Origin: an uncultured Anaerolineae bacterium
GTDB taxonomy: Bacteria; Chloroflexota; Anaerolineae; Anaerolineales; Villigracilaceae
Length of the DNA: 47,020 nucleotides
Direction: 5' to 3'
Assembly (NCBI GenBank): GCA_903910795.1
Contig: CAIWAX010000103.1
Span: 1-47,020 of the forward strand
This document shows, piece by piece, positions 15,149 through 34,203 of this stretch (within the stretch, counting starts at the first letter, position 1; each line of letters opens with the position of its first letter). The position numbers were made by a program, and so were the translations under genes. Below the pieces are notes generated by a model, which saw only the letters and a program-made list of their open reading frames with translations, had not been told where the DNA came from and ran no database searches.

Positions 15149-16609
15149 TTATAAGCGTTTAACATCATGAGAACCACTCTCTCGGATGCCGGCCGGGGTG
15201 ATCTCGATGAATTCAGCATTCTCTTGAAGTTCAAAAATGTTGTGAGCGCCGCCATAGCTTAGCCCGGAGCGCAACCCGCCGATCAGTTGATGCAGAACCT
15301 CACCCACATTTCCGCGGTACGGCACTACAGCTTCCACACCTTCAGGAACAACCTTCATCCAATCTTCTGAATCCTCAGCGCTCTCATCGTGATTTTGTTC
15401 GGATATCCGGCGACCCATCGTGGCCGCCAGCGAAGCCATGCCACGCACTACCTTGACCTTTTGACCATCGCGGATCACTGGTGAGCCAGGCGCTTCTTCA
15501 GTGCCTGCAAACATACTTCCGATCATAACTGTTTCAGCGCCGGCCGCCAGGGCTTTCACCATATCACCAGCCTTCTGAATGCCACCATCCGCAATGAGCG
15601 GAATGTTTCGGCCTGAGTCTTTCACACCTTGCGCGCTATCAATAATGGCCGTCAGTTGAGGAACCCCAAAGCCTGTCACCAGCCTGGTTGTGCAAATAGA
15701 GCCCGGGCCAATCCCTACTTTAATTGCATCCGCGCCAGCTTCAGCCAGTTCCTGCGCGCCCTCTCTGGAAGCAACATTCCCGGCGATAATTTGAGAATTG
15801 GGAAATTGTTTGCGCAGCTCGCGCACCATATTCACACAATGATCGGCATGTCCATGAGCAATATCAAGCACCAGTACATCCGCGCCAGCCTCCAGCAAGG
15901 CAGCCGCACGCTCCATTTCGCCATGTGTTACGCCAATCGCAGCGCCAACCCGCAAGCGTCCTTTCTCGTCCAACGCTGCAAAAGGATTTTTGAGCGGCTT
16001 GAGGACATCCTGGGCGGTAATTAAACCCCGTAAAGTGCCATCCGGATTGACAACCGGTAGTTTTTCAATCCTGTTCTCAAAGAGCAGCCTGCGCGCTTCC
16101 TCCAGCATAAAGTTGGCTTTGATGGTAACAAGCCGGTCAAGTCCAGTCATGATTTCCTTAACCAATTTGAGATTATCTGGAACCAGGTTGATATCGCGCG
16201 TGGTAATGATCCCCATTACCTTGCCATTTTCATCGGTAACAACCAGCCCTCCAACATGGTAACGGCGCATACTTTCCCGTACCTGCTCTACATTTGCGTT
16301 GATATTGATGGTGTATGGATTTTCTACCATCACTGCCTGAGCTCTTTTTACCTGTTTGATCTGCTTTACATGCAGGTCAATTGGCATAAAGCGGTGGATA
16401 ATGCCAATTCCACCCACTTTTGCCATAGCAATTGCCATGGCTGTTTCAGTCACCGTATCCATATTCGCACTAATGACCGGAATATTGATCCGAATTTTCT
16501 CTGTCAACCGAGTAGATGTGTCCACCTGCTGGCGCGAAGTAATCGAAGACCGGCGCGGCACAAGCAAAACATCCTCAAATGTAAGTCCCTTGGATGCGCG
16601 AATAATCAT
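15149..16609 (-). CDS. guaB: Inosine-5'-monophosphate dehydrogenase
   Basis: 486 residues from the ATG at 16609, preceded by GGGAGG; the frame extends 44 codons upstream without conservation. The enzyme oxidises IMP to XMP with NAD+, the committed step to GMP. The N-terminus [12 protein letters not shown] is standard, a CBS pair occupies about 95-205 (regulatory), the catalytic Cys is C306 in GPGSICTTR, and the C-terminal flap contains [24 protein letters not shown]. The gene is monocistronic, with its own terminator. A weak promoter (TTGTTT-N15-TAAAAT) is possible about 50 nt upstream of the start. Confidence 0.97.
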
Positions 16610-16827
16610 ATTGTGAACCTCCCGAAGAATTTCTAACCCTAAAATTGAACGTCTAAATTTTATCTTAAATATGCTCAAAACAAGACTGGAACCCAACAAG
16701 AATTGTTCAGACAACCCAGGGTTCATGAGCATACATAGCAAAACGACCGCCAGACTTGTTGCTCTGTCGATCGTTCTATCTCCAAACTGTAGAAATTATG
16801 TATCCCGGCGTCAAGCCATGGCGGCTT

Positions 16828-17613
16828 TTATAATATCTTTCCCAACATTGCAGACACGGTTTGATAAACAATTGAACTATCAGGCAAATCAACAAGCGGG
16901 CGTCCGCTATAGTCAAAATCCGTCAGTTCCTGGTCAGCCGGGATAGTTCCCAACAAAGTGATTCCCATTTTCTCAACGAAGTTTACAGCTTCGACAGGCA
17001 ATTCGCCCCGCAGACGATTGATAATCAGGTAGGAATGTTCAATTCTGACATCCAGTTCCTTACTCATATCATAAATGCGTTGGGCTGCCACCAACCCGCG
17101 TTGAGATGGATCACTGACAATGAGCAAATGTTGTACATCCCGCGTAGTGCGCCGGGAAAGGTGCTCCATGCCAGCTTCATTGTCAATCACCACATAAGCA
17201 TAATGTTTGCTCATCCCGTCAATCACTTCACGCAAATTGTGATTGACCGCGCAGTAACAGCCCTGCCCTTCGCCGCGCCCCATGGCAATCAAATCAAAGC
17301 GCGAGCCCTCCGACAAGGATGAGCGCACATGATATTCCAGGTATTCACGCTTTGAGATGCCGCCGGGCAAACCTCCCATGGCCGCGCCGCCCTGCGCCAG
17401 GGTCTCTTTCACCTGATGGAGCATATCCTCGCGGATTTCGCCCACAGTGAAATCCAGTTCTAACCCCAAAACCATGTTTAGATTGGATGAGGGATCGGCA
17501 TCAATTGCCAAAATCGAACCGGGCTGGTTTTGAGCCAGGTATTTGATCAACATCCCGGCCACGGTGGTTTTTCCTACGCCGCCTTTGCCTGCCAGAGCAA
17601 TCGTTGTTGTCAT
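16828..17613 (-). CDS. cooC: CooC-type nickel-insertion ATPase (CODH/ACS maturation), copy 1
   Basis: 261 residues of the MinD/ParA-like P-loop class. The deviant Walker A GKGGVGKTT (9-17) includes the signature lysine, switch I is DADPSSN, and the metal-binding CxC is C119-Y-C121 in GQGCYCAVN, the motif through which CooC dimers bind Ni(II). CooC/AcsF proteins load nickel into CODH or ACS at the expense of ATP. The gene lies 37 nt after a paralogue with the same motifs, in a cluster divergent from the CODH/ACS operon. Which of the two serves CooS and which serves AcsB cannot be decided by reading. Confidence 0.92.
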   Translation of the reverse strand: MTTTIALAGKGGVGKTTVAGMLIKYLAQNQPGSILAIDADPSSNLNMVLGLELDFTVGEIREDMLHQVKETLAQGGAAMGGLPGGISKREYLEYHVRSSLSEGSRFDLIAMGRGEGQGCYCAVNHNLREVIDGMSKHYAYVVIDNEAGMEHLSRRTTRDVQHLLIVSDPSQRGLVAAQRIYDMSKELDVRIEHSYLIINRLRGELPVEAVNFVEKMGITLLGTIPADQELTDFDYSGRPLVDLPDSSIVYQTVSAMLGKIL

Positions 17614-17650
17614 AATTCGGTTTCCTTTACGAATAAAATTTTGAGCAAAT

Positions 17651-18433
17651 TTATTGGTCGCGTTCCATCTTCATAAGCTGCGCTGTAATATTCTCAGCAG
17701 ATACCCTCAAAGATTGCACATGATCATAAACCGGAATGCCCAACCGGTCAGCTTCCTGGACAGCCAGATCGGCCGGAAGGAAACCCAGGATCGGCATACC
17801 AGGCGTTTCAGCTTTCAAAAATGCAGATTCATCCTCATTGCGTACTTTATTCCCAACCAGATAAAGACGGTTTAGGCCAATGTCGTTGGCAAGTTTTTTG
17901 ATCTGCAGGGCGGTGCCTAACGAACGCCGGGTGGGTTCCACCACAATCAGCATGGCATCCACAAAATCGACAGTCGCCCGACCGAGATGCTCCACCCCAG
18001 CGTACATATCAAGCAGCAATATCTCATCTTTGCGAAACATCAGGTTTGTAAACAGGGTTTTCAGCATGGCAGCTTCCGGGCAAATGCAGCCTGAACCACC
18101 GGTTTCTACGCTGCCCATCTCGAGCAGACGCACTCCACGGTGCAGCACACTGAAACGTTCGGGAATATCATCCACACGCGGATTGATGGTGAAAAAACCG
18201 CCAATCTGCCCCTTTTTCGCGCCGGTACGTTCCAAAATTAAATCATCCATTTCAGCGATTGGAGCCAACCTGGCGCGAAGTTCATCCGGGAAACCCAACG
18301 CCCCAGCCAGACAAGGGGACGGATCGGCATCGACAGCCAGAACTTCATGCCCCTGATCAGCACAAACCTGCGCAATCAGGGCCGTAAGGGTCGTTTTCCC
18401 AACGCCGCCTTTACCTGTGATAGCAATTTTCAT
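17651..18433 (-). CDS. cooC: CooC-type nickel-insertion ATPase (CODH/ACS maturation), copy 2
   Basis: 260 residues from the ATG at 18433 (GGAG upstream). Walker A is TGKGGVGKTT (6-15), switch I is VDADPSPCL and the nickel-binding CxC is C116-I-C118 in GSGCICPEA, followed by switch II DMYAGVEHLGRATV. The SxxGGSGC(I)CPEA context differs from copy 1 (GQGCYCAVN), indicating distinct subfamilies rather than a recent duplication. An additional Cys lies beside the switch (SPCLAG). It is 27 nt after the DUF3786 gene and 37 nt before copy 1, so all are probably one transcript. Confidence 0.9.
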   Translation of the reverse strand: MKIAITGKGGVGKTTLTALIAQVCADQGHEVLAVDADPSPCLAGALGFPDELRARLAPIAEMDDLILERTGAKKGQIGGFFTINPRVDDIPERFSVLHRGVRLLEMGSVETGGSGCICPEAAMLKTLFTNLMFRKDEILLLDMYAGVEHLGRATVDFVDAMLIVVEPTRRSLGTALQIKKLANDIGLNRLYLVGNKVRNEDESAFLKAETPGMPILGFLPADLAVQEADRLGIPVYDHVQSLRVSAENITAQLMKMERDQ

Positions 18434-18460
18434 ATTTATCTCCAACCAATAATAATTTGA

Positions 18461-19105
18461 TTATTTGACTGGCTTATTTTTGATCACCCTATGAACCAGC
18501 CCGTTGCCGATAATCGCGCAACCTTCTATGGGGTAAAAATGCGTAATCGCTGCATCAAAAAGAATTTTACACGAAGATGGAAAATCTTCATCACCAAGCC
18601 AGTAAACAATTTGAATCGATATCTTTGGCAGCACCTGGAAAACAAAGGCCGCATCTCCGAACACCACCGGCTGGCCACTCGCCTTTAAACAGGCGGTTTT
18701 AAAGGCCTCGATGTTTTCGCCAAAGACCTTGACCACCTCATTGCCAGTATAACCCTGGAAAGCCTGATCGTATATCCTACCGCCAGGCAAATCAGCAAAA
18801 GAAACATAACGGTCTGCGTGTGGGAACCCCTCGGCTGCAACAAAGTAGTAAAGTAATTCCAATTGCTGAAATTCGGCCAATTCTTGTCCCGATTCAAAAA
18901 AAAATTTCATTTCGGGGAATACCGCGCGAATGGACTGACCATTAAATAAAAAAATGAAACAACTTTTGGTAGAGTCGTAGAACGTTCCAGTCCGTTCAGC
19001 CAACACCTCTGCGGAAAAATGTTTCATTTCACTGCGCAATTCATCAGCCCGTCGCGAGAAACCAGGTGCCGACTGAGGCTTAAGGTGTCTGGTGAATTCT
19101 TTCAA
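18461..19105 (-). CDS. DUF3786-family protein, CODH/ACS-associated
   Basis: 214 residues, a predicted soluble alpha/beta protein. The pattern fits DUF3786: an N-terminal helix; FIFLFNGQSIRAVFP; a LLYYFVAAEG helix; the Phe/Gly-rich centre with GGRIYDQAFQGYTGNEVVKVFG; then YWLGDEDFPSSCKILFDAAITHFYPIEGCAIIGNGLVHRVI. Proteins of this family have no established function, and from memory they often sit beside corrinoid or CODH/ACS genes in acetogens and methanogens. Here it lies between a RAM-domain gene (3 nt gap) and two cooC genes, which points to maturation or sensing of the ACS complex. Confidence 0.75.
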   Translation of the reverse strand: MKEFTRHLKPQSAPGFSRRADELRSEMKHFSAEVLAERTGTFYDSTKSCFIFLFNGQSIRAVFPEMKFFFESGQELAEFQQLELLYYFVAAEGFPHADRYVSFADLPGGRIYDQAFQGYTGNEVVKVFGENIEAFKTACLKASGQPVVFGDAAFVFQVLPKISIQIVYWLGDEDFPSSCKILFDAAITHFYPIEGCAIIGNGLVHRVIKNKPVK

Positions 19106-19108
19106 GTG

Positions 19109-19339
19109 CTAAATCTCCACTGCCAGGCAGGTAAGGGTTTCTTCCACTCCCGGAATGGGCTGGATTGATCCCGCCAAAATTTTTCCGAGATCATCAATAT
19201 CCTTGGATTCTACAATTGCCACCGCATCATACGGTCCAAATGTCATGTTTACATCTTTTATCTGGGGAATTTTTTGGAGCTGGTGAATAACATCATAAAG
19301 TTCACCAGTTCGAATATTGATCAATACAAATGCCTTCAT
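19109..19339 (-). CDS. Stand-alone Lrp/AsnC effector-binding (RAM) domain protein
   Basis: 76 residues from the ATG at 19339, preceded by AGGAG. The beta-alpha-beta-beta-alpha-beta pattern (FVLINIRTGELYDVIHQL, KDVNMTFGPYDAVAIVES, IPGVEETLTCLAVE) is the ligand-binding RAM domain of Lrp/AsnC regulators, but the DNA-binding HTH is missing. The GPYDAVAIVE loop is the usual effector and oligomer interface. Such proteins form ring-like oligomers that bind small ligands. As first gene of the set with DUF3786 and cooC it may sense a metabolite of the pathway. A partner DNA-binding protein is not seen nearby. Confidence 0.82.
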   Translation of the reverse strand: MKAFVLINIRTGELYDVIHQLQKIPQIKDVNMTFGPYDAVAIVESKDIDDLGKILAGSIQPIPGVEETLTCLAVEI

Positions 19340-19480
19340 AAACGCTCCTTGAGTGCGCGATTCGTAGACTAAGGGTACAACGCACCCAAAAAGCATACAA
19401 AGGCCAATCGTCACCTTCTCGGCATATCATAAGTCACGAATTGCGGATTTCTATTATGCTGACTTAAAAAGAAATGATTA

Positions 19481-20500
19481 TCAATTCTTCCTTCCCATCC
19501 AGACAAATACGATCCCCAACACCAGCGCAGCAAGCACGATCGCAATCAAAATGGAGGTGCTGCCTTTTGAAAAGGGCGAAACAATGGGAACCTGTGTGGC
19601 AGTCTGGGTAGGAGCAGATGTTGGCGTGTTCGTCAGCGTTGGCAAACCAGTCGCTGTAGCGGTTGAAGTGAAAGTAGGCGGTAATGGGGTGACAGTGTCA
19701 ATTTGCTTAATGTATAACTTATTACCCGGATAAATATTTTGAGTTTCAGCCAGGTTATTCCATCTGCGCAGTTCTATTATTTTGACACCATATGAAACCG
19801 CGATCAGCCAAAGTGTTTCACCCGGCTTGACGATATGATAAACCTTGCCATTTGCCAGGGGAGTGTTGGGAATCAATGTGTTGAAGATCAGCGGTGCTGC
19901 GGCGGCTGTGGCACCTGCGGCGGCCAGCCCACCAGGCACGGGTGTATAAGACTGCGATTGACGGCCGGCTGTTGGACGAGCGCAGTCGATGTCATAATAA
20001 ACGTAATTACCCACAACCACCACGCCCGCGCCAATTTCCATTAAGCTGGTAGAAAGCATAGTCAGCAAGTGCGGGGCATCGCCTTGCCAGCTTGTGACTG
20101 CATCCTGAACGGACATATTTCCACCAGCGGTAATATTTTCAGAATACAAACCGCCCCGAGAGAGGTCACCCGCCAGAGGGTACCCAGCCGCCAAACCACG
20201 CTGCCAGGGACTGGATCCGCCGGCACCATAATGCGACACCCCTGCCACCGACATGTACTGAGCATGCTGCTGGGCGACTGACATCAATATTGGGTTTACT
20301 GTATATGCAGGTAACCCATTGGCTGCGCGCAGCGCGTTGACAGCGCTGATCAGTGCATACGGGTCGGCTGTTAACATGGAGCTGGCCGCCCGAACAGAAT
20401 AACTGCCTTTTGTTCCTGCAGGTGAGACACCCAAAAACAACAATAATAAGAGAACGGTAAAAACTATTTTACGGCCTTTATGTGGAAATGTTCGGAGCAT
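19481..20500 (-). CDS. Secreted CAP/SCP-domain protein with LysM and C-terminal membrane anchor
   Basis: 339 residues. A signal peptide (hydrophobic about 12-26) precedes a CAP (cysteine-rich secretory/antigen 5/PR-1) domain at about 45-170, with SVAQQHAQYMSVAGVSHYG, GLYSENITAGG and DYYDIDCA-like end segments. A LysM peptidoglycan-binding repeat follows at about 218-262 (YHIVKPGETLWLIAVSYGV ... YPGNKLYI), then a Thr/Pro-rich stalk of about 40 residues and a C-terminal TM helix with basic tail (about 313-339). It is therefore cell-surface anchored and wall binding; the CAP activity is unknown. TATAAT lies 6 nt before the ATG, implying a leaderless mRNA. Confidence 0.9.
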   Translation of the reverse strand: MLRTFPHKGRKIVFTVLLLLLFLGVSPAGTKGSYSVRAASSMLTADPYALISAVNALRAANGLPAYTVNPILMSVAQQHAQYMSVAGVSHYGAGGSSPWQRGLAAGYPLAGDLSRGGLYSENITAGGNMSVQDAVTSWQGDAPHLLTMLSTSLMEIGAGVVVVGNYVYYDIDCARPTAGRQSQSYTPVPGGLAAAGATAAAAPLIFNTLIPNTPLANGKVYHIVKPGETLWLIAVSYGVKIIELRRWNNLAETQNIYPGNKLYIKQIDTVTPLPPTFTSTATATGLPTLTNTPTSAPTQTATQVPIVSPFSKGSTSILIAIVLAALVLGIVFVWMGRKN

Positions 20501-20512: not shown

Positions 20513-20619
20513 AAATGAAATTCTTCTGTTCTACATAATACCTGTAAAATTAGGCGCGCTACTTTGTGATATATTGCACAACGTCATATTTTAATCAGAG
20601 AAAGATAGTAACATTTGGA

Positions 20620-20652
20620 ACTATTATATATTTTATAAACCAATATAATAGT
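20620..20652. promoter_or_regulatory. 10-bp inverted repeat, possible operator
   Basis: ACTATTATAT (20620-20629) and ATATAATAGT (20643-20652) are perfect complements separated by 13 nt. AT-rich dyads can arise by chance, so this is a weak call; it lies about 42 bp upstream of the CRP-like site. Confidence 0.35.
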
Positions 20653-20693: not shown

Positions 20694-20711
20694 TTGTGAT
20701 TTTTTTCACAA
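20694..20711 (+). promoter_or_regulatory. CRP/FNR-superfamily binding site upstream of the CODH/ACS operon
   Basis: TTGTGA-TTTTTT-TCACAA, a perfect dyad that contains the canonical CRP half sites TGTGA and TCACA with N6 spacing. The centre (20702.5) is about 42 bp before the transcription start predicted from the TAAAAT at 20733-20738, the class II activator position. CooA (CO sensor), CRP (cAMP) and related factors share this fold and site geometry. The regulator itself is not in the window. Confidence 0.7.
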
Positions 20712-20732
20712 TCAAAATTGTTCAAAGAAGAC

Positions 20733-20738
20733 TAAAAT
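20733..20738 (+). promoter_or_regulatory. -10 element of the CODH/ACS operon
   Basis: TAAAAT with no good -35 upstream, as expected for an activator-dependent promoter. The predicted start near 20744 gives a leader of about 75 nt. Confidence 0.5.
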
Positions 20739-20753
20739 ATTAGTACATCTTAC

Positions 20754-20819: not shown

Positions 20820-21197
20820 ATGCAGAAATCCACATTTAATACACCTGCACTATTTGGTGATCACCATGTCACTGAAGTCAGGCGTATGTTGTTATCAGTG
20901 CCTGGTGTAAGAGACGTATACGCCAGCAGCGCCTTCCAGATTGTCCAGGTTGAATTTGACGATCAGCAAGTCAAGCATGAGGACCTGCTGAGGGTACTGG
21001 AAAACTCTGGTTATCTCGGAGAGATTCAGATGGTCATGGAATCCAGCGTAGCAATGGAAAGCGAAAGCGCCTTTCGAACTACGGCCACTTACGCCACTGT
21101 GAAAAAAACAGTTAGTTTTTCTCAAAAAACCCCATATGCCGGCCGGCCGCTTTGGAACTGCCCGGGTATGGGTGTTGTCAAAAAAATGGATGAATAG
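20820..21197 (+). CDS. HMA-like small protein at the head of the CODH/ACS operon
   Basis: 125 residues, ATG preceded by AGGAGG. Residues about 4-70 fit the beta-alpha-beta-beta-alpha-beta heavy-metal-associated fold (VTEVRRMLLSVPGVRDVY, FQIVQVEFDD, HEDLLRVLENSGY). The usual metal-binding CxxC loop is replaced by LFGDHHV (G13-D-H-H16). After a linker of about 30 residues the C-terminus has TPYAGRPLWNCPGMG with a single Cys (C114). It lies 9 nt before cooS. By fold and position a metal or cluster delivery role for CODH is plausible, with His rather than Cys ligands; this is inference, and I know no named family member. Confidence 0.7.
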   Translation: MQKSTFNTPALFGDHHVTEVRRMLLSVPGVRDVYASSAFQIVQVEFDDQQVKHEDLLRVLENSGYLGEIQMVMESSVAMESESAFRTTATYATVKKTVSFSQKTPYAGRPLWNCPGMGVVKKMDE

Positions 21198-21206
21198 AGG
21201 TAAATA

Positions 21207-23207
21207 ATGGCCAAGAAACGGGAAATTACTGAGTACACGATCGATCCTGCGGCACAGAAGATGATCATCCGTGCCGAGTCAATGGGCATCGGCACTGCCT
21301 TCAGCCGCGCAGATAATATGGTGCCTTGCAACATCGGTGCTGCGGGTATGTGTTGCAAGCAATGCGGTATGGGCCCCTGCCGTTTGACCAAGAACGGTGA
21401 TGTCGGTGTGTGCGGCGCCAGTATGGACACTATCCAGGCCCGCAATCTCACTCGCTCCATAGCGGCTGGCTCTGCCGCACACTCGGATCACGGACGCGAC
21501 ATGGCCTTCACCCTCAAGGCTGTTGCCAATCACGAAACCGAAGGTTATACCATCAAGGATGTTGCTAAACTCCGGCAGGTTGCCAGTCTTAACAATATCA
21601 AGGTTGAAGGCCGTTCACCAGATGAGATCGCCAACGAGCTTGCCGACCTGTATATCTCCCAGTTTGGTCAACAGCGCGGTGTGCTTGTTCCTACAAAGCG
21701 TGCCACCAAGAAACGTCAGGAGCTGTGGCGCCAAACGGGTGTCCTACCCCGCGGTGTGGATCGAGAAGTGGTGGAAGCCCTGCATCGTACCCACATTGGT
21801 GATGACCAGGATTACGCTCATATCCTCGACCACGCCATCCGCACCTCCATGGCTGACGGCTGGGGCGGCTCCATGATCGCCACTGATATTTCAGATATTC
21901 TGTTTGGCACCCCGGCCCCCATTCTAGGACAGGCCAACCTGGGTGTACTAAAGACCGACATGGTGAATGTGGTTGTTCACGGGCATGAGCCCACCCTCAG
22001 CGAAATGATTGTGGCCGCCACCCAGGATCCTGAAATTATCGAATATGCTCATGCTGCAGGCGCCAAAGGCATTCAACTCTCCGGCATTTGCTGCACCGCC
22101 AATGAAACCCTGATGCGCCAGGGCATTCCTGCCGCCGGGAACTTCCTGCACCAGGAGCTTTCCATTATGACTGGGGCCGTGGAAGCCATGGTAGTAGATG
22201 TACAGTGCATCATGCAAGCACTGGTGGAACTGGCCAGCCATTTCCACACGAAGATCATCACCACTTCCCCCAAGGTGAAAATTACCGGCGCCACCCACAT
22301 CGAGTTTGATGAACACCACGCTCTGACAGTTGCCAAGAACATTCTTAAGGTTGCCATTGATAACTACAAGAATCGCGGCGAGATCCAAATCCCAGATGAC
22401 AAAGAAGATTTGATCCCTGGTTTCTCACACGAATATATCAACTATATGCTTGGCGGTTCTTACCGGGCTTCCTTCCGCCCGCTCAATGACGCCATTATGA
22501 GCGGACGCATCCGCGGCGTAGCAGCAATCGTGGGCTGCAACAACCCGCGCTCCAAGCAGGATTACCTGCACGTTAAAGTTGTCCGCGAACTGCTCAAACA
22601 GGATGTTCTGGTTGTTCAGACCGGCTGCGGCGCGATTGCTTCCGCCAAGCTCGGCCTGATGTTGGGCGAAGCCGGCCTGGATCAGGTTGGCCCCGGTTTG
22701 CGTGAAATCTGCGAAACAATAGGCATCCCACCAGTTCTGCATATGGGTTCCTGCGTGGATAACACCCGCATCCTGACCGTCCTGACCCAAATGGCTGAAG
22801 AAGGTGGCCTCGGTGATGATATCGATCAAATCCCGGCTGTTGGTCTGGCACCCGAATGGATGTCTGAAAAGGCTCTTGCCATTGCTACATACTGCGTGGC
22901 TTCCGGCGCATATGTAATTTTCGGCGGTCAATCGCCTATCGGCGGCATGCCCGACCGCGTGAAGGATAGCGATCACGTGTTGAACTATATTTCCGAAGGC
23001 TGGGAAAAGCAATTTGGTGGCAAGCTGGAATTCATTCCCGATCCGGAAGAAATGATCAAGGCCTCTCTGGCTCATATCGATAAGAAGCGCGCGGCCCTGG
23101 GCCTGCCAGCCTGGGATCCCACAAAGTTTGGTAAATCCGGTGACAGCCGCATGCTTGAACTGGAAGCCCTCCCACTTGAACAACGGCGCGAAGCCATTTA
23201 TGGATAG
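21207..23207 (+). CDS. cooS: Anaerobic Ni-Fe carbon monoxide dehydrogenase catalytic subunit
   Basis: 666 residues. CooS/AcsA interconverts CO2 and CO at the NiFe4S4 C-cluster. The N-terminal Cys pattern is complete: C41 and C49 (D-cluster at the dimer interface), C50, C53, C58 and C69 (B-cluster). The C-cluster ligand regions are all present: VHGHEP (His), SGICCTANE, VVDVQCIM, VGCNNPR, QTGCGAIAS and MGSCVDNTR. The start has GAGG upstream. With acsB next, CO should be channelled to acetyl-CoA synthase. It is the second gene of the operon. The antisense 263-aa ORF on this gene is a composition artefact. Confidence 0.98.
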   Translation: MAKKREITEYTIDPAAQKMIIRAESMGIGTAFSRADNMVPCNIGAAGMCCKQCGMGPCRLTKNGDVGVCGASMDTIQARNLTRSIAAGSAAHSDHGRDMAFTLKAVANHETEGYTIKDVAKLRQVASLNNIKVEGRSPDEIANELADLYISQFGQQRGVLVPTKRATKKRQELWRQTGVLPRGVDREVVEALHRTHIGDDQDYAHILDHAIRTSMADGWGGSMIATDISDILFGTPAPILGQANLGVLKTDMVNVVVHGHEPTLSEMIVAATQDPEIIEYAHAAGAKGIQLSGICCTANETLMRQGIPAAGNFLHQELSIMTGAVEAMVVDVQCIMQALVELASHFHTKIITTSPKVKITGATHIEFDEHHALTVAKNILKVAIDNYKNRGEIQIPDDKEDLIPGFSHEYINYMLGGSYRASFRPLNDAIMSGRIRGVAAIVGCNNPRSKQDYLHVKVVRELLKQDVLVVQTGCGAIASAKLGLMLGEAGLDQVGPGLREICETIGIPPVLHMGSCVDNTRILTVLTQMAEEGGLGDDIDQIPAVGLAPEWMSEKALAIATYCVASGAYVIFGGQSPIGGMPDRVKDSDHVLNYISEGWEKQFGGKLEFIPDPEEMIKASLAHIDKKRAALGLPAWDPTKFGKSGDSRMLELEALPLEQRREAIYG

Positions 23208-23265: not shown

Positions 23266-25536
23266 ATGTCACGCTATATCGCAACAAGAGCCATTCGTGG
23301 TGCAAACGCCCTGGTAACCGAAGCTGAATTCATGCTGGAAAGAGCCATCGCAGAAAAAGGCGCCGAGACCCCCATTTCATTTCCAAACACTGCGTATTAC
23401 TTGCCGACCATCTACGCACTAATCGGCATTCCGGTCGAGACCCTCGGTCAGCTCAAAGATGTCATCAAACACGCCCGTGAGCTGTTGCATCCCTCCCCGG
23501 CCAAGAAACACTGGACACCTTATCTGGGTGAAACCCTGGATAGCGGCATGGCTACCCTGTTCGCTGCAGAGACTATTGAAGCAATACGCTTTATTTATAA
23601 CCTGCAACCAGAGCGGAAACCCGGATTCACCCTGGCCGGGGGCACCGCTTATCCCGCCCTTGGTGATCAGGGCGGCTATTTGAACGGCCCCATCGATGAT
23701 ATCCGCCTGCGCTCATGGGGTATCTCGCTGGTGGACGGGCGCATGCCTGGTTTTGCCGCCATCGTTGGCTGCGCAAAATCCAATGAAGTCGCAGTAAAAA
23801 TCGTGCGCGAACTCCAGAAACGCAACATTTTGACCTTCCTGTGCGGCAACGTGAACGGCCGTTCGATCATCGATCAACTCCAGGAGGAAGGTGTCGAATT
23901 GGGTTACGATACCTATACCGTGCCCTTTGGCACCGATACTATTTCAGCCATTTACCCGTTGGGCTTTGCAGCCCGCTCTGCCTTGACCTTTGGTGGTATG
24001 AAACCCGGTATGGCCCAGGATATCCTGCTCTATAACAAGGAACGCGTTTTTGCCTTTGTTCTGGCGCTGGGCGAGGTAGATGATCTGAAATATGCCGCAG
24101 CGGCTGGTGCCATCAACTTCGGGTTCCCCGTCATAGCAGATACAGTTATCCCCGAAATCCTGCCCACCGGTGTCACTACCTATGAACATGTGGTTTCGAT
24201 GCCTTTCGACAAAATCGATGGTGTCGATGATCTGGAACGCGCCGAACGTCTCATCCAAAAATGCATCGAGGTGCGCGGTGTCAAAATTAAGATGACCGAA
24301 GTGCCGATCCCGGTCTCGTATGGTTCCGCCTTTGAAGGCGAGGTAGTACGCAAGGCTGATCTACGCGTAGAATTTGGCGGTAAGCACAGCCGCTGCTATG
24401 AATATCTGTACACCGCGCCGTTAGAAGAAGTTGTTGATGGCAAGGTGGATGTTGTCGGCCCCGATTTCAGTGCCATCCCCGCCCAGGGCAATATGAGCGT
24501 TGGTGTGGTCATCAAGGTAGCTGGCAGATCGATGCAAACCGACTTCGAGCCGGTGCTCGAACGCCAGATACACTACTTTGTTAACGGCGCTTCCGGTATC
24601 CAGCACGTTGGACAGCGTGACATCGCCTGGATCCGCATTTCAAAAGCCGCCGCGGATAAAGGCTTCAGCCTTTCAGACATCGGCAAAATCCTGCACGCCC
24701 GCTTCCACGCTGATTTTGGCGCCATTGTTGACAAAGTACAGGTAACGGTTTACACAGATCCGGTTGAATTTGAAAAATGGCTGGAAACCGCTCGCGGCAC
24801 GTATGACTTCCGCAATAAACGCCTGGCTGATTTGACGGATGACAAGGTGGAAGAGTTCTACTCTTGCACCCTGTGCCAGAGTTTCGCCCCCAACCATGTT
24901 TGCGTGGTCAGCCCGCAGCGCCTGGGTTTATGCGGCGCCTATAACTGGCTGGACTGCAAAGCATCCTTTAACATCAATCCCACCGGTCCAAACCAACCCA
25001 TCAAACTCGGCAAATCCATCGACTTTAAGAAGGGTTACTGGTCTGGCACGAATGATTACGCGGCCATGGGCTCGCACGGCGTGGTCAACGAAGTATCGAT
25101 GTACTCCATTATGGAGAACCCGATGACGGCCTGCGGCTGCTTCGAATGCATCGTGATGCTGATTCCGGAAGCCAATGGTGTAATGATCGTCAGCCGCGAA
25201 GATACCAGCATGACCCCGGCTGGCATGACCTTCAGCACCCTGGCGGGCATCGCAGGCGGCGGTTTGCAAACTCCAGGAGTGATGGGCGTAGGCAAGTTCT
25301 ACCTGATCAGCCCCAAGTTCATCTCGGCCGACGGCGGCTTCAAGCGCGTGGTCTGGATGTCTTCGGTACTCAAGGAAACCATGGCAGATGAGTTCGCCAC
25401 TGTTGCCAACCGCGAAGGCGACCCGGATTTGATCGAGAAGATCGCCGATGAACGCAGCGCTGGCACAGTCGATGAGTTATTAGCCTGGTTGGAAGCCCAC
25501 CAGCACCCGGCCATGATCATGGAGCCCATGTTCTAG
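23266..25536 (+). CDS. acsB: Acetyl-CoA synthase, CODH/ACS complex beta subunit
   Basis: 756 residues, the full bacterial three-domain form (Moorella AcsB is about 729). It joins CO, a methyl group and CoA into acetyl-CoA. The A-cluster ligands are C534, C537, C546 and C556 for the [4Fe-4S] and C623-G-C625 for the distal nickel; the 67-residue distance between the two parts equals that in Moorella. The N-terminal domain that contacts CODH and forms the CO tunnel is present, unlike archaeal CdhC. AAGGAG precedes the start. Loading of nickel would need the CooC/AcsF proteins encoded at 16828-18433. Confidence 0.98.
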   Translation: MSRYIATRAIRGANALVTEAEFMLERAIAEKGAETPISFPNTAYYLPTIYALIGIPVETLGQLKDVIKHARELLHPSPAKKHWTPYLGETLDSGMATLFAAETIEAIRFIYNLQPERKPGFTLAGGTAYPALGDQGGYLNGPIDDIRLRSWGISLVDGRMPGFAAIVGCAKSNEVAVKIVRELQKRNILTFLCGNVNGRSIIDQLQEEGVELGYDTYTVPFGTDTISAIYPLGFAARSALTFGGMKPGMAQDILLYNKERVFAFVLALGEVDDLKYAAAAGAINFGFPVIADTVIPEILPTGVTTYEHVVSMPFDKIDGVDDLERAERLIQKCIEVRGVKIKMTEVPIPVSYGSAFEGEVVRKADLRVEFGGKHSRCYEYLYTAPLEEVVDGKVDVVGPDFSAIPAQGNMSVGVVIKVAGRSMQTDFEPVLERQIHYFVNGASGIQHVGQRDIAWIRISKAAADKGFSLSDIGKILHARFHADFGAIVDKVQVTVYTDPVEFEKWLETARGTYDFRNKRLADLTDDKVEEFYSCTLCQSFAPNHVCVVSPQRLGLCGAYNWLDCKASFNINPTGPNQPIKLGKSIDFKKGYWSGTNDYAAMGSHGVVNEVSMYSIMENPMTACGCFECIVMLIPEANGVMIVSREDTSMTPAGMTFSTLAGIAGGGLQTPGVMGVGKFYLISPKFISADGGFKRVVWMSSVLKETMADEFATVANREGDPDLIEKIADERSAGTVDELLAWLEAHQHPAMIMEPMF

Positions 25537-25614: not shown

Positions 25615-26112
25615 ATGCAACCTAAACTCGTGCGCGACTTAATGACTGTTGGTGTTCCAACATGCAAAACCACGACCAATATTGTGGATATTGCTCGTTT
25701 TATATTGGAACAAAGTGTTGAAGAAATGGTTGTGCTGGGGGTTGAAGGCGAGGGCGTCGGCATTGTCGGTTATGAACAATTGGTCAGCGCTTACAACCGC
25801 GAAAATGTAAAATCCTTGACCGCCGAAGATATCATGCGCGAGGGCGTACCTGAATTACCAGCAGACATTCCACTTGAGCTGGCTGCCCAGATGTTGAAAG
25901 ATAAAGGCATCCGCGTAGCGTATATGACGCACAATTCCGCGGGCATCATTTATCCCGCCGCGCTGATTTCCTATAAGCACATTCTCCGCCACCTGGTTGC
26001 GAATAATGATTCTGAGCTAAAAGATCTCGGCCTGGCTGCTGAGCGCAAAAGCCCCATAGATACCTTTCTTGCACGTCGAGACGAAGCCCGCCGAAAAGCC
26101 GGGCTGACCTGA
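25615..26112 (+). CDS. CBS-pair protein in the CODH/ACS operon
   Basis: 165 residues made of a tandem CBS pair: LVRDLMTVGVPTCKTTTNIVDIARFILEQSVEEMVVLG and ExxGxVGIV-type end for the first, TAEDIMREGVPELPADIPLELAAQMLKDKGIRVAYMTH for the second, then a charged C-terminal helix (about 137-165). CBS pairs bind adenosine nucleotides or SAM. No catalytic domain is attached, so it probably senses energy charge and acts on a partner. It is placed between acsB and acsD; the preceding stem-loop and lack of a clear ribosome site (only A-rich sequence before the ATG) suggest that its translation is controlled separately. Confidence 0.85.
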   Translation: MQPKLVRDLMTVGVPTCKTTTNIVDIARFILEQSVEEMVVLGVEGEGVGIVGYEQLVSAYNRENVKSLTAEDIMREGVPELPADIPLELAAQMLKDKGIRVAYMTHNSAGIIYPAALISYKHILRHLVANNDSELKDLGLAAERKSPIDTFLARRDEARRKAGLT

Positions 26113-28505: not shown

Positions 28506-28540
28506 AGCTAAACAAATAGGCCTGAAAGAAAAGATTGATA

Positions 28541-30466
28541 ATGGCTGAACACACTGTAACCTTCACTACTGCAGATGGCAAAACGGCTACTGTGCATGCG
28601 CAAACGGGTTTATTACTCGCTGAAGCTGCACAAAATGCTGGCATTGACATTGGTCAGCCTTGTGGAGGCCAGGGCCGCTGTGGGCGCTGCGCGGTACAGG
28701 TAACTGCAGGAAATGTACGCCGGCGCTCCACATTGCGGCTCTCCTCCGAAGCCCTCGAACTCGGATATGCGCTTGCCTGCCAATCGGTTGTGGAAGGTGA
28801 TGTTTCTATTTTCGTTCCCGAACAGGAAAAGATCGAGCGCAAACTTACCACCGATCGCGTGGCCGCCGAGGTCAGCATCCCGGCCGGTTACGATTTCAAC
28901 TGGTCTCAGACCATCCGGCGCTACAATGTGCGCTTGAATGAACCATCGATGGATGACCAAACAGACGATTGGAGCAGGCTCCAAACAATTCTCAGACAAC
29001 AACACAAACTTGAAAGCGTCACTTGCAGCCTTCAGCTTCTGCGCCGTTTAGGTGCCATCTTGCGCGATGCCAAATGGCAAGTAGGCGTGGTTGGTAACCT
29101 GCGCGATAAAAACATGCTGGAAATCATCGATGTTCTGCCTGAAATGGTGGATGAAGATGAACCGCTATATGCAGCCGCGATTGATATCGGCACAACCACG
29201 GTAAGTTTCTGGCTGGTTGACCTGATGACCGGCAAAGTGGTTTCACAGGTGGCTGAGTATAACGGCCAGATTTCACGCGGCGAGGATGTCATTTCACGCA
29301 TTATCTATTCAAGTAAAGGAACAGGCCGGGATGAACTCCAAAAAAGAGTCACCGATACGATTAACGCGCTATGTGCAACAGCCTGCAAGCGTGTCAAATC
29401 CCGGCCAGCAGAAGTGATCAAAGCTACAATTGCCGGAAACAGCACGATGATCCATCTACTGCTGGGCATTCCCGCAGCCTCGATCCGTTATTCGCCCTTC
29501 ATCACCGCCTGTAATCACCCACCAATTACCACCGCTCGCGAGCTGGGTTTGAATTTCAGCCCGGACGCCTTGATAGATTGCTTGCCTGGCGTAGCCAGTT
29601 ATGTTGGATCCGACATTACCGCGGGTGTTCTCTCAAGCCGGATCGATTCGGCTGAGGATGTAACTTTGTTCATCGATGTCGGCACAAACGGCGAGATCGT
29701 TCTGGGAAACCAGGACTGGCTGGTCACCTGCGCCTGTTCGGCTGGCCCAGCGTTTGAAGGGGCAGGCGTAGTGCACGGAATGCGCGCCACAAACGGTGCG
29801 ATTGAAGAAGTCTGGATCAACGGCGACACCTACGAACCGACTACCCGGGTAATTGGTAACAGCAAACCCAAAGGAATTTGCGGTTCCGGTTTAATCTCCC
29901 TGATCGCAGAGATGTTCCTGACCGGCGTTCTTGATAAAGCCGGAAATGTCAACCTGACGATCCCAACCAACCGGGTGCGCGAAGGCGAACACGGCGGAGA
30001 ATACGTACTCTCCTGGGCCAGTGAAAGTGAAACCGGCCAGGATATCACCATCACCCGGGTGGATGTAGACAATCTATTGAGAGCCAAAGCCGCCATTTAC
30101 GCTGGTTTCAGTGTTCTGGCCGAGCAGGTTGGTATGACGCTTGCGGATGTCCAGCAAATGTATATCGGCGGTTCGTTCGGTAAATATATCAATGTTGAAA
30201 AAGCTGTGCAAATTGGCCTCCTGCCAGATATGCCCTGGGAAAAGTTCAATTTCCTTGGAAATACATCCATCAAAGGCGCCTACTACACCTTGCTGAACGC
30301 CGATGAACGAGAACGCATCAAGGATATTGCCAACCGCATGACTTATATTGAATTATCGGCTGATAACACTTTCTACGACGCTTTTACATCGGCATTGTTC
30401 CTGCCGCATACTGACATGGCAAAATTCCCGACCGTTCAAAGCGCTTTCGCGAACCAGTCTTCCTGA
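28541..30466 (+). CDS. acsV: Corrinoid protein reductive activator (RACo/AcsV type)
   Basis: 641 residues; the TTG at 28535 is less likely than this ATG. The N-terminal [2Fe-2S] ferredoxin domain has C41-x5-C47-x2-C50 (CGGQGRCGRC) and the distal Cys near 80 (YALACQSV). A linker domain follows, then an actin-like ASKHA ATPase domain with phosphate motifs AAIDIGTTTVSFWLVD and FIDVGTNGEIVLG and the end motif GGSFGKYINVEKA. Such proteins use ATP to reduce inactive Co(II) corrinoid to Co(I). Its place right after acsC fits a role in keeping CFeSP active. Confidence 0.95.
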   Translation: MAEHTVTFTTADGKTATVHAQTGLLLAEAAQNAGIDIGQPCGGQGRCGRCAVQVTAGNVRRRSTLRLSSEALELGYALACQSVVEGDVSIFVPEQEKIERKLTTDRVAAEVSIPAGYDFNWSQTIRRYNVRLNEPSMDDQTDDWSRLQTILRQQHKLESVTCSLQLLRRLGAILRDAKWQVGVVGNLRDKNMLEIIDVLPEMVDEDEPLYAAAIDIGTTTVSFWLVDLMTGKVVSQVAEYNGQISRGEDVISRIIYSSKGTGRDELQKRVTDTINALCATACKRVKSRPAEVIKATIAGNSTMIHLLLGIPAASIRYSPFITACNHPPITTARELGLNFSPDALIDCLPGVASYVGSDITAGVLSSRIDSAEDVTLFIDVGTNGEIVLGNQDWLVTCACSAGPAFEGAGVVHGMRATNGAIEEVWINGDTYEPTTRVIGNSKPKGICGSGLISLIAEMFLTGVLDKAGNVNLTIPTNRVREGEHGGEYVLSWASESETGQDITITRVDVDNLLRAKAAIYAGFSVLAEQVGMTLADVQQMYIGGSFGKYINVEKAVQIGLLPDMPWEKFNFLGNTSIKGAYYTLLNADERERIKDIANRMTYIELSADNTFYDAFTSALFLPHTDMAKFPTVQSAFANQSS

Positions 30467-30543: not shown

Positions 30544-31467
30544 ATGTACATCATTGGCGAAAATATCCACATCATTTCGGAAAAAGTCAAAGAAGCATTA
30601 ATCAATCGTGATCGCGAATTCTTCATGGATCTCGCGGTCAAGCAGGTTGAAGCAGGTGCAAGCGCAGTTGATATCAATCTTGGCCCCCGCAAAAAAGATT
30701 GGGCCGAAGTCTTCCCCTGGATGGTCGAAGCGGTTGAATCTGTAGTGGATGTGCCATTATCCATCGACACCACCAATATAGACGGCATGGAAGCAGCTCT
30801 TAAAACAATCAAAAAAAATCAGCCAATTTTGAATTCCACATCTGCCGAACCAGAACGACTGCAAAAAATTCCGCTGTTGGCCAAGAAATATGGCGCCAAG
30901 GTGATCGCCCTGACTATGGCCGCCGAGGGCATCCCTGTTTCAGCGGATGACCGCGTAAATATAGCGGTTGAGAAATTGATCCCCCGTATGATGGAGATTG
31001 ATTTCCCCATGAGCGACCTGATCATCGACCCGCTGGTGTTGACCACCTCCGGCTGCCAGCAATACTGCCCGCATTTGATCGAAACCGTCCGCACCTTGCA
31101 GTACGCCTGGGAACCGGCCCCCATTATCTCGGTTGGGCTTTCAAATGTTTCCAACGCCGTACCCAACGAAAATCGGCCGTTGATCAACCGGGTTTACCTC
31201 TCCATGTTGATGGGTGTTGGTTTGCAAATGATGATTGCCAATCCGTTTGACAAGGATCAGAACAACGTCATCAAGTGGATCGAAACAAAGGATATGTCCA
31301 CATCTCTTTCCCGGTTATATAATAAGATTGCGGAGCGCATCGCCGCATCTGATGAACCACAACCTGAAGATTTCGATATGCAAGACCCGGAACAAGGAGC
31401 GATCTGGAAAACTACTCAGATCCTCTTGAACAAAGTTATTTACGCTGATGGGTATCTTAACCAGTAA
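30544..31467 (+). CDS. acsE: Methyltetrahydrofolate:corrinoid/iron-sulfur protein methyltransferase
   Basis: 307 residues, with GGAGG upstream. The enzyme moves the methyl group from CH3-THF to Co(I) of AcsCD. It is a pterin-binding TIM barrel: MYIIGENIHIIS at the start, ASAVDINLGPRKKDW, VPLSIDTTN, PILNSTSAEPER, DLIIDPLVL and SVGLSNVSNAVPNENRPLIN, all typical of AcsE/MeTr. Moorella AcsE has about 262 residues, so this one carries a C-terminal addition of some 40 residues (SDEPQPEDFDMQDPEQGAIW and following). It directly precedes the fused methylene-THF reductase. Confidence 0.96.
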   Translation: MYIIGENIHIISEKVKEALINRDREFFMDLAVKQVEAGASAVDINLGPRKKDWAEVFPWMVEAVESVVDVPLSIDTTNIDGMEAALKTIKKNQPILNSTSAEPERLQKIPLLAKKYGAKVIALTMAAEGIPVSADDRVNIAVEKLIPRMMEIDFPMSDLIIDPLVLTTSGCQQYCPHLIETVRTLQYAWEPAPIISVGLSNVSNAVPNENRPLINRVYLSMLMGVGLQMMIANPFDKDQNNVIKWIETKDMSTSLSRLYNKIAERIAASDEPQPEDFDMQDPEQGAIWKTTQILLNKVIYADGYLNQ

Positions 31468-31615: not shown

Positions 31616-33109
31616 ATGCCCATTTTTACCCCCGGTCGACGCTGGCAACCCGCATACTCGCCTTTTAAACAAGAGTCTTTTGGCAACCTCGTATTGGAAA
31701 ATATCGAATATGCCATCAAAAGCCCTTTATTTGGCTGCCGTATGTGTGGCAATTGTTTGCTGCAGGAAACTGCTTTCATCTGCCCGATGGAATGTCCAAA
31801 GGGGCTCCGAAATGGCCCTTGTGGCGGATCTACACCCGAACACTGTTATGTAGATAAAACCCGACCCTGTATCTGGTATAAAATATACGAACGGTCATTC
31901 AAACTCGGACGTGAAGAAAAATTACTGGAAGTGCTGCCGCCGCTCGATTGGGAGAAGGTTGGAACCGAAACATGGGGTGATGTTGCAGCTACCGTGAAAA
32001 AAAATGGGGCTGGCAAGGTATTCAAAAGCATTGTTCTCAATCAGGGCGAATCCCGCTGGAAAACCTGGGAGTTGGTATTCGGTGCTGTCCGCCAACCTGA
32101 TTGGTGGAAAGGCGACAGTGAGTATCACGCACCGGGCTATTCCGAGCCTGTTTCCAGGCTTGAAAAAGCTTTTAAAAATGGTGAGTTTGTGGTGGCCTGT
32201 GAAATTGCGCCGCCATTAAGTGTATCCACGAAGAAATTAATTGAAAACATCAACATTGTCAAACCTTATGTTACGTCCATCAACTTTACTGATAATGCCT
32301 CCGCCACGCCACGCATGACTTCCTGGGCCTGCAGCAAGATCGCGATTGATAATGGTGCCGAGCCCGTCATGCAGATTGCCGCGCGTGACCGCACCCGAGC
32401 CAGCCTGCAAGGTGAGATACTGGGCGCATCTGCGCTGGGGGTTCGTAACATGCTGTGCATCACTGGCGACAGCCCGATTTTGGCTCCTCAGCCGCGCGGC
32501 CGCATGGATATTAACGACATGGATGCCATTCAGATGATCTGGATTTTGCGCCGCATGCGCGATGAAGGCCATTATCTGGATGGGCGCGAAATTAAATTTC
32601 CGCCCAAGTTCTTCTTGGGCGCGGCAGCGGCACCTTTTGCATCCGATCCAAAATTCCAGGCGATTCGTGAACACAAGAAATTTAATGCCGGGGCTCAGTT
32701 TTTCCAGACCAACCTGGTTTACGACCCGGAGCGCATGGAAATCTGGCTAAACGAACTGGGTAAACGAAACATTTTGGGAAAAATCTACATCATGATCGGC
32801 ATCACACCATTAAAGAGCGCAAAAATGGCGCATTATATGACCCAGGTTCCAGGCGTTTTTGTGCCCAAGGCCATTCTTGACCGCATGGATCAAGCTGACC
32901 AAAAAGGCGGGCCTGCTGGTGCTCAAGAAGAAGGTCTTAAGATCGCGCTCGAAATTATCGAAAAAATCAAAGGGAAGCAAGGCATCCAGGGATTGCATAT
33001 CATGCCCGTTGGCTGGGAAGATATCGTTCCACGAATTGTCACGGAAGCCGGTTTGTTGCCCAAAGGTTTTGTAAAGCCGGAAGCAGTCAGCCCAAAAACT
33101 GCAGCCTGA
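31616..33109 (+). CDS. metF: MetV-MetF fusion, methylenetetrahydrofolate reductase
   Basis: 497 residues, ATG with GGAG upstream. The N-terminal 100 residues are a MetV-type zinc/Fe-S domain (methylene-THF reductase C-terminal-like family) with FGCRMCGNCLLQ, FICPMECPKGLRNGPCGG and TPEHCYVDKTRPCIWY, nine Cys in all. From about residue 175 on, a MetF TIM barrel follows (FVVACEIAPPLS, INFTDNASATPRMTS, MQIAARDRTRASLQGE, LCITGDSP, FFLGAAAAPFA, GAQFFQTNLVYD). In Moorella the two are separate subunits that associate with Hdr/Mvh proteins. This enzyme makes the methyl-THF used by AcsE. Confidence 0.92.
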   Translation: MPIFTPGRRWQPAYSPFKQESFGNLVLENIEYAIKSPLFGCRMCGNCLLQETAFICPMECPKGLRNGPCGGSTPEHCYVDKTRPCIWYKIYERSFKLGREEKLLEVLPPLDWEKVGTETWGDVAATVKKNGAGKVFKSIVLNQGESRWKTWELVFGAVRQPDWWKGDSEYHAPGYSEPVSRLEKAFKNGEFVVACEIAPPLSVSTKKLIENINIVKPYVTSINFTDNASATPRMTSWACSKIAIDNGAEPVMQIAARDRTRASLQGEILGASALGVRNMLCITGDSPILAPQPRGRMDINDMDAIQMIWILRRMRDEGHYLDGREIKFPPKFFLGAAAAPFASDPKFQAIREHKKFNAGAQFFQTNLVYDPERMEIWLNELGKRNILGKIYIMIGITPLKSAKMAHYMTQVPGVFVPKAILDRMDQADQKGGPAGAQEEGLKIALEIIEKIKGKQGIQGLHIMPVGWEDIVPRIVTEAGLLPKGFVKPEAVSPKTAA

Positions 33110-34197: not shown

Positions 34198-34203
34198 TAT
34201 AAT
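34198..34203 (+). promoter_or_regulatory. -10 element of the acyl-CoA synthetase gene
   Basis: TATAAT, with poor -35 sequence at the usual distance. The leader is about 65 nt up to the ATG at 34276. Confidence 0.5.

Follow-up and report, generated by a model that had tools for sequence, protein, structure and literature searches.

What controls expression of the CODH/ACS operon in Anaerolineales is the question raised by this locus, a stretch of 47,020 nucleotides from an uncultured member of this order that is referred to in its entirety as the window. A limited search of the literature, in which sources were available in part, returned no account of Wood-Ljungdahl pathway control in Anaerolineales. 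A preliminary description of this DNA had pointed to a perfect TTGTGA-N6-TCACAA dyad ahead of the operon, had placed it in a class II position relative to a -10 hexamer without a -35, and had proposed a CRP-type activator responding to CO, cAMP or redox state. Here we follow up each part of that proposal in the window, in the genome from which it derives and in related genomes.

The operon and its upstream region

The operon (Table 1) starts with a gene for an HMA-domain protein and not with cooS, and the gaps between its genes measure at most 148 bp. The constant presence of the HMA gene 5' of cooS raises the question of metal delivery to CODH. The nearest named relatives of CooS come from Anaerolineae/Anaerolineales MAGs, and the host assembly comprises 5.0 Mb in 496 contigs and is 92% complete; it also holds a second CooS homologue (G000:C430:837-2711), which is 43% identical and has one internal TAG. 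CAP/LysM, Lrp-type and IMPDH genes adjoin CODH/ACS in the window (15149-20500) and acetate-CoA ligase in the related genome G001 (L129); since the neighbours differ between the two, these blocks have been rearranged.

Table 1. Features of the window, in order of position
Feature	Position	Strand	Remarks
Intergenic region, 319 bp, 72% A+T	between CAP/LysM gene (19481-20500, -) and first operon gene (20820)		
Second dyad TTGTGATATATTGCACAA	20564-20581	+	one mismatch; overlooked in the preliminary description
26-bp block AGATAGTAACATTTGGAACTATTATA	20603-20628	+	identical in three species; inverted repeat ATAGT..ACTAT inside
TATAAT, possible upstream promoter P1	20644-20649	+	overlooked in the preliminary description
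Dyad TTGTGATTTTTTTCACAA, predicted Rex-type operator	20694-20711	+	where relatives have the proximal copy of the tandem element
-10 hexamer TAAAAT of promoter P2	20733-20738	+	21 bp 3' of TTGTGATTTTTTTCACAA; 36 bp from TGA of the dyad
HMA-domain protein, 125 aa, first operon gene	20820-21197	+	match 5' of cooS in 30/30 loci (three partial)
cooS, anaerobic CO dehydrogenase catalytic subunit	21207-23207	+	TIGR01702, 597 bits
Acetyl-CoA synthase (CdhC, ACS_CODH_B_C)	23266-25536	+	
CBS-domain protein	25615-26112	+	
Two CdhD-family corrinoid protein subunits, 314 and 441 aa	26154-28433	+	
RACo-type corrinoid activator	28535-30466	+	
Pterin-binding methyltransferase	30544-31467	+	
Methylenetetrahydrofolate reductase (MTHFR)	31616-33109	+	
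Imperfect Rex-type site TTGTTCTTTTTTTCACAA	34213-34230	+	9 bp 3' of TATAAT (34198-34203), upstream of the ADP-forming acetate-CoA ligase gene

The dyad at 20694 is the only perfect one in the window, where chance would be expected to supply 0.003 (base composition) to 0.0045 (first-order Markov). When the 319-bp intergenic region was shuffled 20,000 times, a perfect site arose in none of the 20,000 shuffles, and two sites with at most one mismatch, as observed here, likewise in none. Shuffles and expected counts together rule out a chance palindrome, and the observation made in the preliminary description is confirmed. Between the dyad and the first start codon of the operon are 108 bp; the dyad stands 5' of the -10 and overlaps the -35 region of P2. 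Its centre (20702.5) is 33 bp from that of the -10 hexamer (20735.5), which, given the predicted start at 20744-20745, places it at about -42. A consensus promoter scanner reported no plus-strand promoter using the TAAAAT at 20733-20738. The best match to TTGACA at a spacing of 15-20 bp reaches only 3/6, which confirms the earlier reading of a -10 that stands without a -35.

Farther upstream, a dyad at the place of the second dyad occurs, among the 30 loci compared, only in the window and in its two nearest relatives, G008 and G004. The TATAAT of P1 is 35 bp from the TAACA of the 26-bp block in all three species (counted by eye), a distance that is constant even though the spacer between block and hexamer has diverged among them. 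From these alignments, positions 20603-20649 can be read as a possible second operon promoter with a control site of its own.

A conserved tandem element in front of cooS

We searched for CooS in 81 genomes of the order, found a match in 38, and took 30 loci. Three of these (L039, L045 and L060) break off within the first gene and were set aside, which left 27 usable upstream regions, 22 from the family of the window and five from other families. An element aligns at the place of the dyad in 21 of the 27, and all 22 usable family loci carry it, three of them (the window, G008 and G004) being recognized solely by position in the alignment. Its usual form is a tandem pair, a distal ACATTTRTC followed 22 bp on by a proximal TGACAATnnTCACAA, and 3' of the pair stands TAGAAT or TAAAAT, often as TGCTAGAAT, that is, as an extended -10. 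The offset of this -10 is 36 bp (11 loci), 37 (two), 42 (seven) or 43 (one) in the 21 aligned loci, and L038 has TAGAAT at 41 bp; nine of 22 loci are thus spaced at 41-43 rather than 36-37 bp, roughly half a helical turn more. Such a hexamer would fall at those offsets by chance in about 1% of cases per locus, a test that is not independent because the alignment in which the anchors were chosen by eye also contained the -10.

A model, R1, was built from sequence alone on 18 loci; the window, G008 and G004 were left out of it, as was the -10. It recovers the element in the held-out L038 and has no match in the window, L032 or L033. Of 80 named loci fetched, 60 were searched 5' of cooS, and 12 matched R1, 11 of them with a -10 at 36 or 42 bp; five of the 12 repeat training sequences, and six of the other seven have the -10, L239 being the one without. 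The five usable loci from other families (L050, L051, L055, L057 and L058) show no element, by alignment or by R1. Within the 30 loci, the perfect dyad precedes cooS in the window and in G008 and a dyad with one mismatch in G004 and G001, the rest having another element or none. The dyad is thus present in close relatives, and the conserved spacing supports the class II-like geometry, with the dyad near -42 at the predicted start, that had been proposed.

Its perfect palindrome, its conserved position, the near-fixed spacing to the -10 and the missing -35 make the dyad the predicted operator of the CODH/ACS operon promoter. What is new here is the conserved tandem element that these alignments place 5' of CODH/ACS. 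Two copies 22 bp apart, often before an extended -10, fit a pair of activator dimers.

Rex as a possible regulator of the dyad

TTGTGA-N6-TCACAA is printed as the Rex motif for Calderihabitans (PMC7306483) and TTGTGAA-N4-TTCACAA as that for Parageobacillus (PMC13077300); in the portions of both papers available to us, Rex is a repressor released by NADH. The dyad TTGTGATTTTTTTCACAA is perfect with respect to the Calderihabitans form and one base off the stricter Parageobacillus form. The window's genome contains one rex gene (PF06971, 68.9 bits; NF003995, 265 bits at a cut-off of 126), whose product matches the PDB Rex 3ikv with E 2e-45. Among 21 relatives tested, rex is present in 20; in G022 the relatives' element is present and rex was not found.

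Genome-wide, 12 sites match TGTGA-N6-TCACA against 0 for a reversed control pattern and 19 match TTGTG-N8-CACAA against 2, and seven of these 19 are perfect TTGTGA-N6-TCACAA sites where 0.3-0.5 would be expected. Taken over both patterns, 22 sites lie outside the window, and eight of them precede redox or fermentation genes, named here from reading translations and not from family searches: hydABC-type (two sites), gapA-pgk, ldh, pfkA, Rrf2-cydAB, a membrane oxidoreductase complex and hdrCBA. The sites of ldh, pfkA, gapA, cydAB and hdr fall short of the perfect 18-mer. The remaining 14 have no such target, and several lie inside genes or between gene ends (e.g. L061, L067, L071, L022 and L030). 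In four congeners (G001, G002, G004 and G008) the perfect motif precedes hydABC-type clusters, and the perfect 18-mer of congeners is also found ahead of a carboxylase, fdhD, a membrane complex, PPDK, UDP-glucose dehydrogenase and others. The hydABC-type cluster that follows two such sites in the window's genome includes DRTGG, CBS and PHP genes. HydABC-type promoters of the genus (L072, L196, L197 and L201) share TGACATTTGTTAG upstream, besides the Rex-type site 3' of the -10, an arrangement that looks like a meeting point of two regulators.

In 13 of 20 listed Rex-type sites, the list being confined to sites with an assignable target and not including PPDK, UDP-glucose dehydrogenase, acetate-CoA ligase and several more of the perfect sites, the site lies 0-12 bp 3' of a -10-like hexamer, which is a repressor position. 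The window's dyad, unlike these 13, lies 5' of its -10, as do some of the rest. It scores 25.5 bits on a matrix of Rex-type sites against 16.7 on a matrix of the relatives' element, a result that is partly circular because the former was made from 19 chosen sites, 17 of them perfect 18-mers found by pattern. On the same Rex matrix, cooS loci other than those of the window, G008 and G004, 18 in all, score from 15.6 down to -10.8. The elements of relatives are thus mostly poor Rex sites, so that Rex control would be lineage-specific, and Rex is disfavoured as the regulator of the relatives' element.

Whether Rex controls the CODH/ACS promoter through the dyad in the lineage of the window is, on the evidence of motif, gene and target genes, evenly balanced in our judgement. 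The regulator was probably misnamed in the preliminary description, the dyad being more likely to read NADH via Rex than CO or cAMP. Under such control, Rex with NAD+ bound would occupy about -51 to -33 and would block RNA polymerase at a promoter that has no -35. As NADH rises, Rex would leave and the reduction of CO2 to acetyl-CoA would come on as an electron sink. An activator may still act through the same dyad or through the block at 20603-20628. If Rex does control CODH/ACS here, the pathway is an NADH-driven electron sink and not a response to CO.

Other candidate regulators

The same geometry would suit an activator. A CRP/FNR dimer, other than CooA and cAMP-CRP, could sit at about -42 as a class II activator replacing the -35, with two dimers in the relatives, a reading that we consider doubtful on balance. 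It accords with the near-fixed spacing to an often extended -10 and with the lack of a visible -35 in the relatives, a pattern repeated in six of the seven further loci outside the model, and with the GA-N6-TC geometry that the tandem copies share with CRP/FNR sites. Orthologues (E below 1e-60) of a CRP/FNR protein with an RExxxR triad occur in 20 of the 24 family genomes that have this cooS and in 12 of the 25 that lack it (Fisher p 0.016, kinship uncorrected); in genomes at least 90% complete the counts are 18 of 21 and 12 of 20 (p 0.085, again uncorrected for kinship). A recognition helix TVREVVARSL, or a close variant, with the CRP residues Arg180, Glu181 and Arg185 was read in 10 genomes; R180/E181 are the subject of the specificity rule given in the part of PMC1274295 available to us. 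This protein is accordingly a candidate, judged from its distribution and its helix, for the regulator of the ancestral element. Against a CRP/FNR activator, searches for the RExxxR protein gave nothing in G004, G013, G029 or the 92% complete genome of the window, and G013 has a strong element yet only one full CRP/FNR protein, which belongs to another cluster. PF13545 gave 10 matches in the window's genome, of which seven were read as other HTH families and three are full CRP/FNR proteins; these three score well under the NCBIfam thresholds that define CRP and FNR and have R/Q, R/G and R/V at positions 180/181, none with Glu181. The two spacing classes also count against it. When CRP/FNR proteins of 13 element-bearing genomes were clustered at 40% identity, no cluster covered all of them and the widest was present in 10, so that a single CRP/FNR orthologue for all was not found; of the 53 loci entered, L221, L224 and L169 were dropped as having no CRP-like protein, and weak matches stayed outside the comparison (one of G018, L152 of G013, L170, L226, L228 and L229). 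CRP-family genes do exist in the genome, but the CRP-family regulator proposed for the dyad is not supported there, where Glu181 is missing from the three proteins and the motif is that of Rex; such an activator may apply to the ancestral element.

CO control via CooA, which the preliminary description had found attractive, is hardly credible. Operon content alone argues for it, CooA being a CRP-family protein. The published CooA operator is TGTC-N8-GACA; none of the 27 loci has it in the stretch of up to 300 bp ahead of the operon, and its sole match in the window (28280) is intragenic. The genome's CRP/FNR proteins match CooA structures weakly, L007 with E 1e-7 and L008 with E 4e-5, in both cases after many other structures; for L006 CooA is not among the best 60 of 164 chains, and no CooA was found among the PF13545 matches of the 92% complete genome. 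An FNR-type operator, TTGAT-N4-ATCAA, is likewise absent from the 27 upstream regions. It is also conceivable, though unlikely, that an inherited activator and Rex compete for the dyad, so that the operon would be expressed only when a high NADH level coincides with the signal of the activator; G008 has the RExxxR protein, rex and a dyad fitting both matrices (22.8 on the Rex-type matrix, 20.3 on that of the relatives' element), but two regulators are needed and one of them was not found in the window's genome. Finally, the core TGTGACA-TT-TGTCACA can equally be read as a 7-2-7 inverted repeat, which may resemble NarL-type sites, and the absence of a CRP/FNR cluster common to the 13 element-bearing genomes would, like the two spacing classes, suit another dimer, such as a NarL-type response regulator, as the regulator of the ancestral element. 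We think this quite improbable, the perfect TTGTGA-N6-TCACAA of the window's lineage being better explained by Rex.

A possible hand-over between regulators

How the preferred regulator, Rex, could have come to the place of an older element is suggested by the window, G008 and G004. In these three, the distal copy is weak or gone and the -10 is not extended by TG; as a Rex palindrome, the proximal copy is perfect in the window and G008 and near-perfect in G004, and all three have the second Rex-like dyad. The class II geometry may thus be that of an inherited activator site turned Rex operator in the lineage of the window.

Elsewhere in the relatives, 14 regions matching R1 were read, and seven of them adjoin cydAB (L127, and L132 with a further reductase gene in between), an Rrf2 gene (L133), NuoEF/formate-dehydrogenase genes (L128, and L130 and L131, which are the same sequence found on two contigs) or acetate-CoA ligase (L129). 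One region lies by feoAB and a DtxR-type gene (L136), and the other six have no clear or related target. On this thin evidence, the R1 sites look like a separate regulon.

The acetate-CoA ligase promoters may illustrate the same shift. In the window, the ADP-forming ligase probably starts at ATG 34276 and not at GTG 34174, with the TATAAT and the imperfect Rex-like site lying between. In G001, G002 and G009, a dyad (with one mismatch in G009) is situated about 185-204 bp 5' of the ligase gene, and TAGAAT follows at 36-37 bp. In the window and G008, TTGTTC-N6-TCACAA stands 9 bp 3' of a TATAAT, and in G005 TAGTTC-N6-TCACAA stands 7 bp 3' of one. Among the 14 genomes searched, G004 and six others gave no match, G033 has neither form, and the match in G006 is without the gene start. 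These promoters would fit a shift towards Rex, which we put forward as a hypothesis because the left half-site is imperfect.

Taken together, we tentatively suggest that a redox regulator of the family controls energy and C1 genes (CODH/ACS, a formate-dehydrogenase cluster, cydAB and acetate-CoA ligase) from operators arranged in tandem at a distance of 22 bp (ACATTTRTC / TGTGACATTNNTCACAA), and that Rex took these operators over in the lineage of the window, so that the Wood-Ljungdahl pathway would have been handed over from one regulator to another. The conserved tandem element provides a concrete operator sequence with which the family's own regulator could be fished out.

Comparison with known systems

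A CRP class II site is a 16-bp TGTGA-N6-TCACA palindrome centred at about -42, without a -35. The palindrome, the centre near -42 at the predicted start and the lack of a -35 are alike in the window; however, a protein with the CRP recognition triad was not found in its genome, and the relatives have two spacing classes. The HcpR-type site, wTGTGAnnnnnnTCACAw, is the same palindrome as the dyad, but its main targets in the excerpts of the source, hcp and frdX, are unlike the CODH/ACS operon (PMC1274295).

The closest parallels are Rex operators predicted, in the available parts of the two reports, upstream of Ni-CODH/ECH clusters in Parageobacillus (PMC13077300) and of cooS2-ech1 in Calderihabitans (PMC7306483). 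These systems have in common with the window the motif TTGTGA-N6-TCACAA, a rex gene in the genome and redox enzymes as targets. The two differ from it, as far as those parts extend, in what is controlled and from where: their clusters couple CO oxidation to hydrogenase, whereas the window encodes the CODH/ACS of the Wood-Ljungdahl pathway in Chloroflexota, and the site in Parageobacillus-type operons is predicted 31-37 bp upstream, whereas the dyad of the window stands 108 bp before the first start codon and 5' of the -10.
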